DNA from: Dehalococcoidia bacterium
GTDB lineage: Bacteria; Chloroflexota; Dehalococcoidia; Lucifugimonadales; Lucifugimonadaceae
Direction: 5' to 3'
NCBI GenBank assembly: GCA_014239685.1
Contig: JAAZYK010000002.1
Location: forward strand, 1-39,232
Length of the DNA stretch: 39,232 bases
Position numbers and translations under genes: made by a program. The notes below the pieces were generated by a model. That model did not search any database, had not been told where the DNA came from, and was given only the letters and a program-made list of their open reading frames with translations. Below, piece by piece: positions 17,853-28,064 of the stretch (position 1 is its first letter; every line of letters starts with the position of its first letter).

Positions 17853-17891
17853 AAAAAAATGACCCCTCCCCGGATGCGGTGGGGAGGGGTC
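17853..17891 (-). terminator. Rho-independent terminator downstream of the ParB-like gene
   Basis: Perfect 11-bp stem GACCCCTCCCC (17861-17871)/GGGGAGGGGTC (17881-17891), 9-nt loop, followed on the minus strand by T7 (A7 at 17853-17859). Confidence 0.85.
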
Positions 17892-17966
17892 GAGGGTCCG
17901 GCGTTTCAACGGGGGGTTGGGGGGGGCCGAGAAGCGCCGGTTGGGTTTGTAGTATTCAGTATTCGT

Positions 17967-18905
17967 CTATCTCCGGGACGCCGCCCCCACCAGTGCTGGC
18001 GGCATGCCGGCCCCTGGGATTTGCGCACCGGCCAGGTGATGCAGAGCGAGCTGAACTCGGCTATCCAGAATCCGAAGTGTCGAGACTAGCTTGAGGCGTC
18101 GATACTCCGGGATCGTCTGAAGCGGGAGACTATCAAGCTGCCCGGCCAGTTGCAGGAGCATGCCCTCTAGGTCTTTCCGATGATGGATCACTGGCTCTGG
18201 CGCTCTGGGCAGAGGTGCGGGCTCAGGTTCTGGGGCGGGTTTCGCGCCGTTGACCACTTCATCAAGCAAGTCATCGATTGATTTGGTTGGGAAATTTTTG
18301 GCGCGCCCGACGATCCGCTCAACGTATACGGAACTCAGTTGCCCGGAGACAAATGGTCCGGCAATCTCACGTTGGCGGGCATAGTCGTCAATGTCTGCGA
18401 TGCTGCGAGCTTCTTTAAAAGTGAGCTCGCCGGAATCAACTTTCTTTCCGAGCTCCGGGTCCAGGTTTCGAATCAGACTCTCATAGTGGTGAATTGTCCC
18501 CGGGGTGATAGCGGTACGGCGGGCAAGCTCCTGCTGTGTGACGGAGTGCTCCTCCCTGTATTCAAGGAAAGCGCGCCCGAGCTGCATGGCAGGAATTTTC
18601 TCATGATGGTAGTTCTCGCTGAGACGCAATTCCCGGAGTTCTTGCTCATCAATGCCAGCGCGGAGTTGTGCGTCTATGTCAGTAAGTCCGGCTCTGCGCG
18701 CCGCCATCCACAGGCGCTCACCAACGACTATGACGTAAGGGGCAGCTTCCAAATCACTATCGCAAGCCGGGTTGGGCCTCACGATGAGAGGTTGACGCAA
18801 CTCCAATGTGCGCAGGTCGTCTGACGTGTTCGCACTACGCCCTTTACGGGGCAACTTGCGCGGCTGATCGGGGTCTGGAATTATGGAGTGGACCGGTAGG
18901 AGCAT
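17967..18905 (-). CDS. ParB/Srx-domain DNA-binding protein, solitary ParB-like
   Basis: LLPVHSIIPDPDQPRK...LRQPLIVRP..YVIVVGERLWMAARRAG...LRLSENYHHEKIPAMQLGRAF and HTH VTQQELARRTAITPGTIHHYESLI. RBS GGAGG upstream of ATG 18905. Confidence 0.87.
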   Translation of the reverse strand: MLLPVHSIIPDPDQPRKLPRKGRSANTSDDLRTLELRQPLIVRPNPACDSDLEAAPYVIVVGERLWMAARRAGLTDIDAQLRAGIDEQELRELRLSENYHHEKIPAMQLGRAFLEYREEHSVTQQELARRTAITPGTIHHYESLIRNLDPELGKKVDSGELTFKEARSIADIDDYARQREIAGPFVSGQLSSVYVERIVGRAKNFPTKSIDDLLDEVVNGAKPAPEPEPAPLPRAPEPVIHHRKDLEGMLLQLAGQLDSLPLQTIPEYRRLKLVSTLRILDSRVQLALHHLAGAQIPGAGMPPALVGAASRR

Positions 18906-18991
18906 GCCAGCCTCCCGCTTTAGATGGTGTGTTTGCCGGGCTATCTCGCTCCCCGATTGGGATGTGAGGAAGCCCTAGTTCGACTGAGAAC

Positions 18992-19034
18992 ATTCTGGAC
19001 GGTCGAAGGAGTAGTTTCCAAAACTGTCCAGAAT
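18992..19034. repeat. Imperfect inverted repeat in the ParB-like/DUF5343 divergent intergenic region
   Basis: ATTCTGGAC (18992-19000) and GTCCAGAAT (19026-19034) are exact reverse complements. Extending inwards gives 11/12 (ATTCTGGACGGT / ACTGTCCAGAAT). Confidence 0.7.
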
Positions 19035-19126
19035 TAAAAAGGCGGCGTTCTGAATATGCATTGACTTTGGAATTAGGCTGGGATAGTTTGATATCGCTAC
19101 GATCAAACCCTTCCCGATTTCCCATC

Positions 19127-19852
19127 GTGATAAACGTGACATCTCCTTCCCCCACGATACCCCCATATGTCCCGTATCGGACATTCCGAAATTTCTTGGA
19201 ATTTCTAGGGGAAGGCATGCCTGCAAGGATAGATAGAAGCGTCTGGGGCCAGCGGGCGTCCGGAAGTACGGGTATCCAGCTAATGACGGCGCTTAGAGCT
19301 CTGGAGCTTGTGGATGACGATAGCCGGCCGACTGAGGACCTTGAACATCTGGCGGGCTTGGAGGGTGACGAGCGGCGCTCCACATTGGCTACGCTGTTGC
19401 GACGGCACTATCCGCCGGTGTTCGCTCTGGATTTGACGCGGGCGACCCGCGCACAGTTCAGGGAGGCGTTTCGAAATTTCGGCGCCAAGGAGGGCGTGCT
19501 AGCCAAATGTGAGGCGTTCTTTATCCAGGCTGCGCAGGACGCCGGCCTTGAGCTTTCGTCATACGTTCTGGCTGGACGGCATGTATCGAGAAGAGCTTCA
19601 AGCGCTTCCGTCAGATCTCGTCAGCAGTCGGTAGAACGTTCCTTGTCCCAACCAGCACCGGTAGCGGTAGCCGCTCCGGTGCAGGCCGCGGGCGTTTCTA
19701 TCGCCGAGATGGTCCTCAGAAAATACCCGGATTTTGATCCGAACTGGGATGTGATTACACAACAGAAGTGGTTCGACGGGATGACTAAACTTATGGAGTC
19801 CCTCGGCCAGGGCGGCGGCGATCAGGCATCCGGGGACTCTGGGGGCGGATAG
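19127..19852 (+). CDS. DUF5343-like protein of unknown function
   Basis: PYVPYRTFRNFLEFLGEGMPARIDRSVWGQRASGSTGIQLMTALRALELVDDDSRPTEDLEHLAG..., resembling the DUF5343 N-terminal pattern. Start uncertain: the ORF track's TTG 19061 overlaps a possible -35 element; in-frame GTG 19127 or 19136 is more plausible. Confidence 0.7.
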   Translation: MINVTSPSPTIPPYVPYRTFRNFLEFLGEGMPARIDRSVWGQRASGSTGIQLMTALRALELVDDDSRPTEDLEHLAGLEGDERRSTLATLLRRHYPPVFALDLTRATRAQFREAFRNFGAKEGVLAKCEAFFIQAAQDAGLELSSYVLAGRHVSRRASSASVRSRQQSVERSLSQPAPVAVAAPVQAAGVSIAEMVLRKYPDFDPNWDVITQQKWFDGMTKLMESLGQGGGDQASGDSGGG

Positions 19853-21412: not shown

Positions 21413-24400
21413 CTAGAGCAGCGGTTGCATGCGCGGGCGCGGCGTTTCAAGCAGTTCTGATGTAGATTTTGGAGACGTGGCTTCTCCGCCTGTGGCGTCG
21501 GCCTCTCCGGTGATATTCAGAGCGCCGGGGGAGAGATCCACCACGTTTGGGGATTCGATTCCAGCCTCCTTTGCCGCACTCTGAAACATGGTCACTGTAT
21601 CGGGGTGACACGTCAGTGCTATCACCTGATGGCGTTTCGAGAGTTCAATTACGGCGGCGGCAGCGGCGCGTGCCCTGACAGGGTCAAAGTTGACGAGAAC
21701 GTCATCGAGCAACACCGGCATGGATTCTGTATTCCTGCAATACTCCTCGACAAGGGCGAACCGCAGCGCTAGGAACAACTGCTCGGCAGTGCCGCGGCTA
21801 AGTTGCTCCGGGCGCTTGCCTATCGAATCGTCCATCACCACCTCGAACCGATTCTCTCCAAGAACGGCGCGGACATTGGAATACCGGCCGAGGGTCATTC
21901 GACGGAAATGTTCAGAAGCTAAGCCGAGAAGAGCCGGTTGGCGGGACTCCTGGAACTCATCACGAGTCCGGTCCAAGAGTGTTCGGGCGACCGTAAGTAC
22001 GCTCCAATTTCGGCCTGCGATCCGAGTCTCTTCTGTGAGACGATCTATCGTGGCGTGAAGTTGGCTGATGCCCTCTTCGGCCTCTAGTTGTTGAAGTCGA
22101 AGTTTGAGTTCACCCGATCGCTGCAGTCCATCGACACGTTCGATATCAAGTTCGGTGAGTTGATCTTCCAGACCCGCCGCCTGTGCCTCAAGGGCATCCG
22201 GCGACATGAGGTCAAGCTCTTTTGCTATTTCCGGAGCGTCCGGCCCGATGAGCTCTGGCTGAGCGATGTTTAACTGTCGCAGTTCATTTAGGATCTGTTT
22301 CTTGTCGGAAAGCGCGGCCGCGGCGCTCCGGAACTCCTCAACGGTTTCGAATCCGGCCGCCCCGATCAACTCGTCCAGTGATGCCCCGGATGTTGTTGCC
22401 CGCGTTTCAAGTGCCTTGCGTTCGGTATTCCAAGATTGTGAAGCGTGTTCGATATTGCGTCGATGGGCGAGGGCGTCCCTGTGTTTGTTCCAGCGGCCCT
22501 CCAGGTCCCTGAGCGCATGCAGGCCATCCCCCGGCTCGAACCCGGGTAGACTCGCCGCATTCAAAATTTCGGCGAGTGCGCGATCTGTCTGGCCGTTTCG
22601 CTGTGTCATACCGGCAATACGGCGGCGGGTTTCGTCGAGTAGTCGAAGTTCTGCCTGTCGGGTCGATATATTGCCGACCGCAGTGAGCGCGCGTGGCATG
22701 TCCAGATTTGTGTGCAATGCGAGGCTTGAGAGCGTCTCGTTCCACTGATCTACGGCCTCTTTGTGGGCGTCGGCAGCAACGATCGAGGACTCTTCGGACA
22801 TCCTCACGCCGTTTGATGCCGTCACGACAACGTTGTCCAACTCCTTCAATTCGGCCACTCGACGTTCGTACTCCGCACGCCTCTCGACCGCCCGATCCAT
22901 CGCGCTCAACGCTTCGACGACGCCACGCATCGGTACCGGAGTTGTCATCCCTAATTCGTGTGCAAGGGATTCGATTTCGTGCGAGACCCGGTTCATACGT
23001 TGGCCGGGTGCATCGATTTTGACATCAGATACGTCGCCGTCCGATTGACGGGTTACGGATCGATATCCAAGCGTGATTGCGACGCCGACCGTGATCATCC
23101 CGGACAGTACGCCTGATAGCTCGCCCGCCACCAGGCCCCATCCCGCTGCGCCCAACCCAACCAGCCCGAGTGCTGATGCAACAGCCAAAGATCTTCCTGT
23201 ACTCGGCCGAACGTCCGTAGTGTGGCGTCCGGCACCCGTTGCAAATCGCTCAAGATCACCGAACTCGGCTAGTGCGGCCTGCAGTCGGTCAAGCTGATCG
23301 CGCCGGGTCGCTAACGCCTCCCCCGATTCAGAGGGAACGTCTGTGAGCGATCCAAGGCGATTCTCGCCGTGTGTCGCAGCCTGGGTCGCCTCATTCAACG
23401 CCGCTTTTGCCCTGTCAATGTCCGTGACGGCCGTCTCGTAAGAGCGTTTCGCCAGCGATTCGGTTTCGCCAGATTCCTGGAGTCGAACCGCGGCTCCCGA
23501 GGCGTCTTTGAACTCCCGTAGTCTCTGCTCGCTCCAATTGGGGCCAAGCTCATCCCTGGCGCGTTCGATGTCTCGTGCAGCCTCGCGTTCTTCGGCCGTT
23601 TTCCCGGGGATGTCGCGGGCCGCTTCAGCGTAATAGCCAATCTGTTGCACGACGCGTGCGATCTTGGCCTCGTGTTCTATAAATGCCTCCACTACAGGGA
23701 GAGCGGAGATCTCCGCTCGCTGCATCTCGTCCGAAACGTCACCCTCCGAGATTTGCTCGTGGAGGTGACCCTGCTCAGCCAGCAACTCCTCAAGGCGCTC
23801 GCTCCCGCGCTCCGGGAACCCGGGTCGTTCCGGAACCGCGTCCAGTCGGGTTTGCAGTTCGCCTGCGCGTATCCAGTGCGGCCGTAAGGTGATCACCCGG
23901 GCGTTGTGGTTGCGAAGTCTCCTGATGTCCTCGATCCGAGAGTCCAGGTCGGCCAGTTGTCCCGAGAGTTGGGCTAGCTCACCGGCCAGTTGTTCGTACC
24001 CGGCCAGTTCCGAACGTTTGTCCTCAAGGCGCGCGTTTGCCTCGCTGTATTTTTTCTCCAAGTCAAACAACTGGCCGGACCGGGTCTTTCGGAACACTCC
24101 GATCCGGTCGTCCAGCTCCTTCGTTACGAAGGGAAGGCTTACGTTTACGAGGCCCATTCCGGCGGAGTAGATGCGGTCCCGGATTTCGTCTCTGTTCAGA
24201 GATTCAAACGATTGGAGTTCGGTGAGGCCAACGCTGAATACGTTCTGGTATAGATCGGCGTCAATCCCGGCCAGTAAGCGGGTCAGGGATTCGCCGCCGC
24301 CGTCCATGTCACCGGCCACAGCGACCGGCCCGCCTTTTGAGCCTTCAGAGCGGTGTATCGAGTAGCTCGACCCGTTTGCCATTGACAGATGGAGTGAGCC

Positions 24401-24619
24401 GCTAGCTTCTCCGCCTAGGTGGGGTGCATAGTAATAGTCGTTCCAGGCGGACTGAGCACGCGTTGGGAATCCGAACAATATGACGCGAATGAAGGCGCGC
24501 AGAGCGGATTTACCAGCCTCGTTTGGTCCGAGTACCACAGTTAATCCGGGCGGGATCGGGGCGATGAGATCGCCGTTGAACGGGCCGAAATTGTCCAGAT
24601 TCAGGCGCGAGATATACAT
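21413..24619 (-). CDS. YhaN/SbcC-like AAA ATPase with coiled coil and central hydrophobic segment
   Basis: MYISRLNLDNFGPFNG, Walker A GPNEAGKSALRAFI, C-terminal signature/Walker B LSRGTAEQLFLALRFAL...MPVLLDDVLVNFDPVRARA. 1068 aa, abuts the YhaO-like gene. Confidence 0.88.
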   Translation of the reverse strand: MYISRLNLDNFGPFNGDLIAPIPPGLTVVLGPNEAGKSALRAFIRVILFGFPTRAQSAWNDYYYAPHLGGEASGSLHLSMANGSSYSIHRSEGSKGGPVAVAGDMDGGGESLTRLLAGIDADLYQNVFSVGLTELQSFESLNRDEIRDRIYSAGMGLVNVSLPFVTKELDDRIGVFRKTRSGQLFDLEKKYSEANARLEDKRSELAGYEQLAGELAQLSGQLADLDSRIEDIRRLRNHNARVITLRPHWIRAGELQTRLDAVPERPGFPERGSERLEELLAEQGHLHEQISEGDVSDEMQRAEISALPVVEAFIEHEAKIARVVQQIGYYAEAARDIPGKTAEEREAARDIERARDELGPNWSEQRLREFKDASGAAVRLQESGETESLAKRSYETAVTDIDRAKAALNEATQAATHGENRLGSLTDVPSESGEALATRRDQLDRLQAALAEFGDLERFATGAGRHTTDVRPSTGRSLAVASALGLVGLGAAGWGLVAGELSGVLSGMITVGVAITLGYRSVTRQSDGDVSDVKIDAPGQRMNRVSHEIESLAHELGMTTPVPMRGVVEALSAMDRAVERRAEYERRVAELKELDNVVVTASNGVRMSEESSIVAADAHKEAVDQWNETLSSLALHTNLDMPRALTAVGNISTRQAELRLLDETRRRIAGMTQRNGQTDRALAEILNAASLPGFEPGDGLHALRDLEGRWNKHRDALAHRRNIEHASQSWNTERKALETRATTSGASLDELIGAAGFETVEEFRSAAAALSDKKQILNELRQLNIAQPELIGPDAPEIAKELDLMSPDALEAQAAGLEDQLTELDIERVDGLQRSGELKLRLQQLEAEEGISQLHATIDRLTEETRIAGRNWSVLTVARTLLDRTRDEFQESRQPALLGLASEHFRRMTLGRYSNVRAVLGENRFEVVMDDSIGKRPEQLSRGTAEQLFLALRFALVEEYCRNTESMPVLLDDVLVNFDPVRARAAAAAVIELSKRHQVIALTCHPDTVTMFQSAAKEAGIESPNVVDLSPGALNITGEADATGGEATSPKSTSELLETPRPRMQPLL

Positions 24620-24620
24620 A

Positions 24621-25883
24621 TCAGGCGTCTCCCTCGAACAGGCTGGCCAGCTCCCAGCGCGCTTCGTCGATTATTCGACTGAGCTCCTCGTCGTCTGGCG
24701 CGTCCAGGACATCTGCAAACCTACGGCTGTTAAATACCGAAGCCAGAGCAGCACGCAGCTCCTCACGTTCGTCCCCCTCGTCTCTGGCAGTACCAGCGCG
24801 CCGCAAGATAGCTCCCAGGAAATCGTCTCGGCCGGCCAGCATGTCTATGTCGATTTCCGCCCGCGTCTCGTCCGAGATGCGTTCGATCCAGACGAATGGA
24901 CGCCCCCGTCCGAACGAACGTCGTAGCTCCTCAGCAATTTCGGACAAAGTTTCACCATGGCCGAGTTCTTTATGCAGAGGGCCGCGGCCGGTCATCAGAA
25001 CCCGGACGATGAGATCGCGTCCTCCGGCATCCGAACGTGCGATATCGAGCGCTTCCGAGACGGCGTCTACAAGCTCGCCCAGGTCGAAACGTCCTTCGAT
25101 AGCGACCTCGATCGTCTCCCAGCGAACTACATCGAGGGGCCGGAACGCTAGTTCGACTCTTCCGGTACCGTCCACATCAACGACAAGCGCGCCGCGTTCT
25201 CCCGGCTCGTTCGGGTGACGTCCCTGGGTATTGCCCGGGTAGGCGATAGTCGGTCTGTGTTCACGCAATGTCCGGCGCGTGTGGACATGTCCGAGCGCCC
25301 AGTAGTCGATGGGAATGCTCGCTAGATCGTCGACCGTGCACGGCGCGTAGTCGTCATGCGCCGGATCACCTCCAACGTTGCAGTGGAGTAGGCCGATGCT
25401 GAACACATCGTCGGGAGGCGGAGCGGCAAAAGTTATGGCGATGTTCTCCCGGACCTCCCGATGCGGGTAGCTCGCGCCTTGGATACGCGCGATTACTTGA
25501 TCGTTGGATCTGACATCCGCCCACTCCGGCTCGGCGCCGAAGGTGTGGACCAGCGCGGGCAAGCGGATCGATCCAGACCATCCTTCAAGGGGGTCGTGGT
25601 TGCCATGAACGACGAAGGTCGGGATTCCGTGATCCGAAAGGCGCGTCAACCCTTCCCGGAACCTGAGCTGGGCGCGGACGCCGCGATCTGCTCCGTCGTA
25701 CACATCCCCGGCGATGACGAGGAAGTCCGCATGTTCGTTAATGCACAGGTCGATCAGGTTTTGATACGCCTCGAAGGTAGCTTCGTGGAGCCGTTTCGCT
25801 ATGGCGTCATCCGTCTTCAGCAGCCCCTTAAATGGGCTGTCGATGTGGAGGTCAGCTGCGTGTACAAAGCGGAAGGGTTGCAT
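24621..25883 (-). CDS. YhaO/SbcD-like DNA repair metallophosphoesterase (exonuclease)
   Basis: FVHAADLHIDSPFKGL, VIAGDVYDGADRGVRAQLRF, VVHGNHDPLEGW, LLHCNVGG, ALGHVHTRR. Confidence 0.91.
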   Translation of the reverse strand: MQPFRFVHAADLHIDSPFKGLLKTDDAIAKRLHEATFEAYQNLIDLCINEHADFLVIAGDVYDGADRGVRAQLRFREGLTRLSDHGIPTFVVHGNHDPLEGWSGSIRLPALVHTFGAEPEWADVRSNDQVIARIQGASYPHREVRENIAITFAAPPPDDVFSIGLLHCNVGGDPAHDDYAPCTVDDLASIPIDYWALGHVHTRRTLREHRPTIAYPGNTQGRHPNEPGERGALVVDVDGTGRVELAFRPLDVVRWETIEVAIEGRFDLGELVDAVSEALDIARSDAGGRDLIVRVLMTGRGPLHKELGHGETLSEIAEELRRSFGRGRPFVWIERISDETRAEIDIDMLAGRDDFLGAILRRAGTARDEGDEREELRAALASVFNSRRFADVLDAPDDEELSRIIDEARWELASLFEGDA

Positions 25884-26072: not shown

Positions 26073-27734
<1,662 letters not shown>

Positions 27735-27764
27735 CTAATAACCCGCCCTATGAAGGGCAAGGGC

Positions 27765-28064
27765 CTAGATGGTGGCGAGGATGTCGCTCTCTCGAACCAC
27801 CAGGTACTCGGTCCCGGCCTCGGTGTACTCGGTTCCCGCGTACTTGGAATAGATAACGTTGTCACCAACCTTGATAGTCAGGGCGATGGTCTTGCCATCT
27901 TCGCTAACTCGTCCGGGGCCGGTGGCAACTACTTTGCCGGTCTGGGGCTTCTCTTTTGCGGTGTCCGGAATGTAAATTCCACCCGCGGTTTGTGAGACCT
28001 CGTCGTCGCTCGGCTCGATCACGATACGATCAGCCAGCGGCTTGATTTTGACCTTTGCAGCCAC
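27765..28064 (-). CDS. groES: Co-chaperonin GroES (Hsp10)
   Basis: [48 protein letters not shown]...[13 protein letters not shown]. Confidence 0.99.

Follow-up and report, generated by a model that had tools for sequence, protein, structure and literature searches.

A divergent ParB-like and DUF5343 gene pair is a conserved, origin-linked locus of SAR202 group I Dehalococcoidia

Results

A divergent gene pair with a shared regulatory region

The window, by which we mean the whole stretch of 39,232 nucleotides analysed here, comes from a marine SAR202 bacterium and carries a ParB-like gene transcribed away from the gene of a DUF5343 protein (Table 1). A sequence-only reading of this DNA had proposed a ParB protein with a helix-turn-helix (HTH) domain and a DUF5343-like partner, and both identifications held. 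In a profile search, the window ParB-like protein matched ParB_N (E = 1.4e-10) and HTH_ParB (E = 2.7e-8). The window DUF5343 protein itself remained below the Pfam gathering cut-off (E = 0.002); the label is nevertheless probably right, because all 12 family members that were scanned match the profile (PF17278) over the domain, the best with E = 5e-8.

The divergent arrangement was also confirmed, with one correction. Alignment with relatives places the true DUF5343 start at GTG 19136 and not, as first read, at TTG 19061; the peptide 'PPYVPYRTF' is encoded and conserved in every aligned relative. The gap between the two genes is therefore 230 bp. TTG 19061 is part of a -35 box rather than a start codon, since TTGACT is conserved in 37/67 loci and is followed, after a 17-bp spacer, by a -10-like hexamer. 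The ParB-like gene does possess the strong terminator of its own that had been described (an 11-bp GC stem followed by U7, fold z = -3.75) and, as stated earlier, neither parA nor an integrase gene was found near the window pair. An AAA_27 (YhaN-like) ATPase gene and a metallophosphoesterase gene (21413-25883 of the window) are kept near the pair in several genera, and groES-groEL (26073-28064) is likewise conserved beside it.

Table 1. Features of the locus in the window, with examples of a dispersed repeat from Candidatus Lucifugimonas marina (G018) in the last row.
Feature	Position	Strand	Description
ParB-like protein gene	17967..18905	-	312 aa; degenerate ParB CTPase fold, intact HTH, family-specific C-terminal domain
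DUF5343 protein gene	19136..19852	+	238 aa; disordered linker and conserved C-terminal tail KYPDFDPxW..Q.KW
Divergent regulatory region	18906..19135		230 bp between both genes; kept across the family
Intrinsic terminator of the ParB-like gene	17853..17891	-	stem arms 17881-17891 and 17861-17871; U-run 17853-17859
Sigma-70-like promoter of the DUF5343 gene	19061..19089	+	-35 TTGACT 19061-19066, 17-bp spacer, weak -10 TAGTTT 19084-19089
Inverted repeat ATTCYRA-N13-TYRGAAT over the -35	19047..19073	.	window copy GTTCTGA...TTGGAAT, one mismatch
Inverted repeat ATTCCGAAATTTCTTGGAAT within the DUF5343 coding sequence	19183..19202	.	synonymous constraint
AAACTGTCC element (AAAYTGTCC)	19021..19029	+	most conserved non-coding block
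ATTCTGAACTTGATTCAGAAT repeat examples, G018	43000-43121, 48615-48736, 2955777-2955898

The pair is a single-copy core locus of the family

The distribution of the pair was determined across 61 genomes that share the window's GTDB family (SAR202 group I), its own genome (79% complete) among them. The ParB-like gene was present in 57/61 genomes and the DUF5343 gene in 58/61; the pair was single-copy, adjacent and divergent in 57/61. All 57 genomes with the ParB-like gene have its partner on the same contig in divergent orientation, and the four without it are 56-74% complete. A second, partial DUF5343 relative lies distant from the pair in one family genome (G014:C38:38133-38615). The other families of the order were represented by 39 genomes, of which only one gave a weak ParB match and four a partial DUF5343 match. 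The best ParB hit outside the family (G267, E = 4e-31) was rejected as an ortholog: its CTP boxes are intact and it has no adjacent DUF5343 gene.

A scan of named records covering 84,980 species returned 70 loci. Both genes were found at 66 of them, and three of the four exceptions lie at contig ends. Two records bear the names Woeseia and Wildermuthbacteria, labels that possibly reflect mis-binning; the labels of all others read Chloroflexi, Dehalococcoidia or SAR202. At the locus labelled Candidatus Wildermuthbacteria (L138), a SAR202-type ParB-like gene stands without partner on a scaffold whose flanks resemble another phylum, and the scaffold is probably a chimeric assembly. The records holding the locus include Candidatus Lucifugimonas marina JH1073 (CP046147; G018), a cultured SAR202 group I isolate (PMC10444878).

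The earlier reading had proposed a linked module sharing a regulatory intergenic region, to be recognised by co-occurring homologs and by gene content that varies between relatives. The homologs co-occur without exception (57/57) and the promoter and repeats are conserved, which strongly supports the module; the gene content is invariant between relatives, and that part of the proposal did not stand. The conservation pattern contradicts a mobile or defence locus, patchy presence and mobile or defence neighbours not having been found.

The ParB-like protein keeps its HTH, and its CTP boxes are degraded in most members

The ParB-like protein is the sole ParB_N match in the window's genome and usually the sole one in those of its relatives. 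Its sequence and fold matches in PDB and fold searches are ParB and Noc (model pLDDT 81). No strong ParA was found beside the ParB-like gene in the family; as positive controls, ParA adjoins ParB in four genomes of the class and in G067 (E at most 2e-52). The ParA-binding motif LG[RK]GL, present in three canonical ParBs of the class, occurred in 0/38 ParB-like members. The GxxR of Box II is gone in 34/38 members, and the N..R of Box III (ENxxR) is found in 0/38. As GxxR survives in 4/38, nucleotide binding may persist in some members. Mean identity is 0.76 in the HTH versus 0.40 in the N-domain, and two stretches are near-invariant: TQQELARRTGITPGTIHHYESL in the HTH and IPEYRRLKLIS.LRILDSR in the C-terminal domain. 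Judging from this pattern, selection appears to have favoured recognition of a single DNA sequence and an interaction through the C-terminal domain, and not obviously the action of a CTP clamp.

Conserved inverted repeats travel with the ParB-like gene

Elements of the intergenic region and of the 5' end of the DUF5343 gene were counted over 67 loci with shuffled controls. The promoter pattern TTGAYT-N17-TANNNT occurred at 37/67 loci and in none of the shuffles; in a separate scan with the promoter consensus, the window copy fell under the threshold. With at most one mismatch, the repeat over the -35 was found at 39/67 loci and the internal repeat, ATTCCRA-N6-TYRGAAT, at 57/67, again with no occurrence in shuffles. 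The AAAYTGTCC element was exact at 62/67 loci and present at 67/67 when one mismatch was allowed, against three expected.

The internal repeat is written in frozen synonymous codons (TTC 61/61, ACA 87%, TTT 88%, TTG 76%, GAA 97%); outside it, 0/75 other conserved DUF5343 codons exceeded 75%. In DUF5343 relatives that have no ParB-like neighbour, the codons at this position vary freely and the repeats are absent both upstream and inside. The internal site thus travels with the ParB-like protein, which is therefore predicted to be the likelier binder. The repeats at the locus have two different spacings, unlike the ungapped parS.

A genome-wide search for a regulon of these repeats returned only the locus itself and near-chance matches. 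With a loosened pattern, about 55 dispersed palindromes were obtained in Ca. L. marina; these were rejected as binding sites, their flanks showing an interspersed REP-like repeat. The palindromes are 21 bp long (ATTCTGAACTTGATTCAGAAT); many occur as two inverted copies spaced by about 101 bp, with TTGTC/GACAA on the outer sides. Another genome (G057) carries the variant ATTCCGAATCAAGTTCGGAAT.

Relatives of the DUF5343 protein adjoin ftsA-ftsZ elsewhere in the class

We searched 294 genomes of the class by profile and, with score as the sole criterion, inspected the 20 best loci from beyond the family. The gene of the full-length DUF5343 relative was divergent from ftsA-ftsZ at 15/20 loci and from tandem ftsZ-like genes at 2/20, that is at 17/20 in all; the FtsA and FtsZ identities were confirmed by Pfam on example loci. 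At two loci of family f83 (L278 and L279, in G260 and G149), three tandem ftsZ-like genes with no recognised ftsA are divergent from the DUF5343 gene, and the DUF5343 protein has a duplicated tail motif. In two members of the order (G062 and G075), the DUF5343 gene lies between gyrA and recA. In the SAR202 group I family itself, the pair is not adjacent to ftsAZ. In most cases, the orthologs outside the family share the K[FY]PxFDPxW tail, preceded by a disordered linker. Compared with the described DUF5343 domain (PF17278), which the 12 scanned members match, this branch has in addition the disordered linker, the tail and the linkage to ftsAZ or to the ParB-like gene.

The structure model of the DUF5343 protein is helical and has a weak fold resemblance to BrxA (probability 0.94, E = 0.16), with no ATPase match. 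A search of solved structures by sequence gave nothing significant, the protein had no match in PHROG, and our literature search found no paper mentioning DUF5343. From the ftsA-ftsZ linkage elsewhere in the class, we infer that the DUF5343 protein is a division- and chromosome-linked factor.

The pair lies close to the replication origin

In 29 family genomes, dnaA and the pair are on one contig, 4-76 kb apart in 28 of them, short contigs biasing these distances downward; such co-occurrence in half of the genomes is far above chance. Among the three complete genomes, the distance is 21 kb in one and 75 kb in another, and it reaches 502 kb in the third (G034). The GC skew of Ca. L. marina stays positive between the neighbourhood of the pair and about 1.4 Mb and is negative over the rest of the chromosome; its minimum, at 3,026,300, falls about 7 kb away from the pair. 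In G008 and G034, both complete genomes with noisy skew, local minima were located at distances of 51 and 58 kb. No cluster of DnaA boxes was found at the pair, and Ca. L. marina has one next to its dnaA gene. We read the pair as origin-proximal; the case is firm for one complete genome and is based on linkage to dnaA for many others.

Discussion

The pair is thus family-core, single-copy and divergently linked. With somewhat better than even confidence, we read it as a core chromosomal module in which an orphan, origin-linked derivative of ParB regulates a division-linked protein through specific DNA sites and acts as its partner. As part of this reading, and at the same level of confidence, the ParB-like protein would descend from a chromosomal ParB that became an orphan. 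Relative to such an ancestor, the HTH and the location of the gene near the origin have been retained, ParA and, in nearly all members, both of the CTP boxes that bind phosphate have been lost, and the C-terminal domain is a new acquisition. The protein is most likely a site-specific DNA binder; its putative sites are the inverted ATTCCRAA/TTYGGAAT repeats, which cover the -35 and occur again in the 5' part of the DUF5343 gene. Bound there, it may tune the expression of the divergent DUF5343 gene, by repression or activation, in a manner linked to the cell cycle, a role suggested by conservation and genomic context. The DUF5343 protein would be the division- and chromosome-linked factor; this link is drawn because its relatives are divergent from ftsA-ftsZ or ftsZ-like genes at most of the loci inspected. 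Several observations count against the reading: the two spacings of the repeats, the survival of GxxR in 4/38 members, the lack of ftsAZ beside the pair in this family, and, in the complete genomes G008 and G034, noisy skew, with a distant dnaA in G034.

Comparison with known systems shows what has been kept and what is new. The N-domain and HTH fold and the near-origin gene are those of the chromosomal ParB (Spo0J) of ParABS systems, but the pair has no parA, no ParA-binding motif and degraded CTP boxes II and III, and the conserved C-terminal domain is unrelated. No canonical parS with fewer than two mismatches was found in 400 kb around the Ca. L. marina origin. Orphan ParBs are an established category (PMC12704722), and the protein described here fits it, being a homolog of ParB that is not part of any parAB operon and belongs to a lineage from which parAB has been lost. 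It differs in that its nucleotide boxes are mostly gone and in having a fixed divergent partner and a conserved putative operator; it appears to stand further than the usual orphan ParB from a nucleotide-binding state. That paper names neither Chloroflexota nor DUF5343.

Could the ParB-like protein work as Noc does, occupying many chromosomal sites and, with the DUF5343 protein replacing membrane binding, blocking division over DNA? The resemblance is consistent: like Noc, the protein is ParB-derived and ParA-free, the curated subfamily model TIGR04285 (nucleoid occlusion) was the best one in 12/12 members, Noc structures are among the top sequence and fold matches, and DUF5343 genes adjoin ftsAZ in relatives. 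However, the window protein scores 63 bits against a Noc model cut-off of 315, its CTP boxes are degraded and it has a fixed DUF5343 partner. Moreover, dispersed sites of the Noc-binding type (NBS) were not found: none occurs in 400 kb around the Ca. L. marina origin, where the best match has two mismatches or more, and the locus motif forms no genome-wide set, although other site sequences are possible. We consider Noc-like action unlikely.

A marginally less probable arrangement, also doubtful in our view, has the DUF5343 protein bind the repeats and autoregulate, leaving the ParB-like protein to other sites, for example parS-like ones near the origin. The weak likeness of the modelled fold to BrxA would agree with this, and the AAACTGTCC block, separate from the repeats, may belong to the other protein. 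Against it, DUF5343 relatives with no ParB-like gene have the repeats neither upstream nor internally.

Still less probable is a reduced segregation system, in which the locus itself would carry a centromere marked by the ParB-like protein, with its DUF5343 partner substituting for ParA or for a condensin-loading factor. While an origin-proximal locus without ParA and an extremely conserved intergenic region are what such a system would show, the DUF5343 model is helical with no ATPase match, and ParB spreading requires the CTP boxes that are degraded here.

Finally, the accessory or phage-defence regulator locus suggested by the sequence-only reading is very improbable: the wider DUF5343 domain does match a PADLOC candidate model (PDC-M34A, E = 4e-4), but the pair is core, single-copy, vertically kept and linked to dnaA and the origin, its neighbours are housekeeping genes, the DUF5343 protein has no PHROG match, and relatives of this partner lie beside ftsA-ftsZ or between gyrA and recA.

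Returning to the orphan ParB derivative with a division-linked partner, a more specific version may be proposed only tentatively, and we would not expect it to hold in full. In SAR202 group I, a ParB derivative that sits at the origin and works without nucleotide would have recruited a tailed DUF5343 protein of the divisome, such that origin position or nucleoid state would control division independently of ParA, Noc and SlmA, in a so far unrecognised cell-cycle module of the Dehalococcoidia.

The linkage to ftsAZ and to ParB-like genes is the first functional lead that we found for DUF5343. Both halves of the proposal can be tested, in cultured Ca. Lucifugimonas marina and in cultured relatives with an ftsAZ-linked ortholog. 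The case bears on how ParA-less bacteria position their origins and time division: here a whole, ecologically abundant family without a recognisable parAB operon retains what appears to be a ParB derivative devoid of the CTP switch, beside a partner that is probably linked to division.
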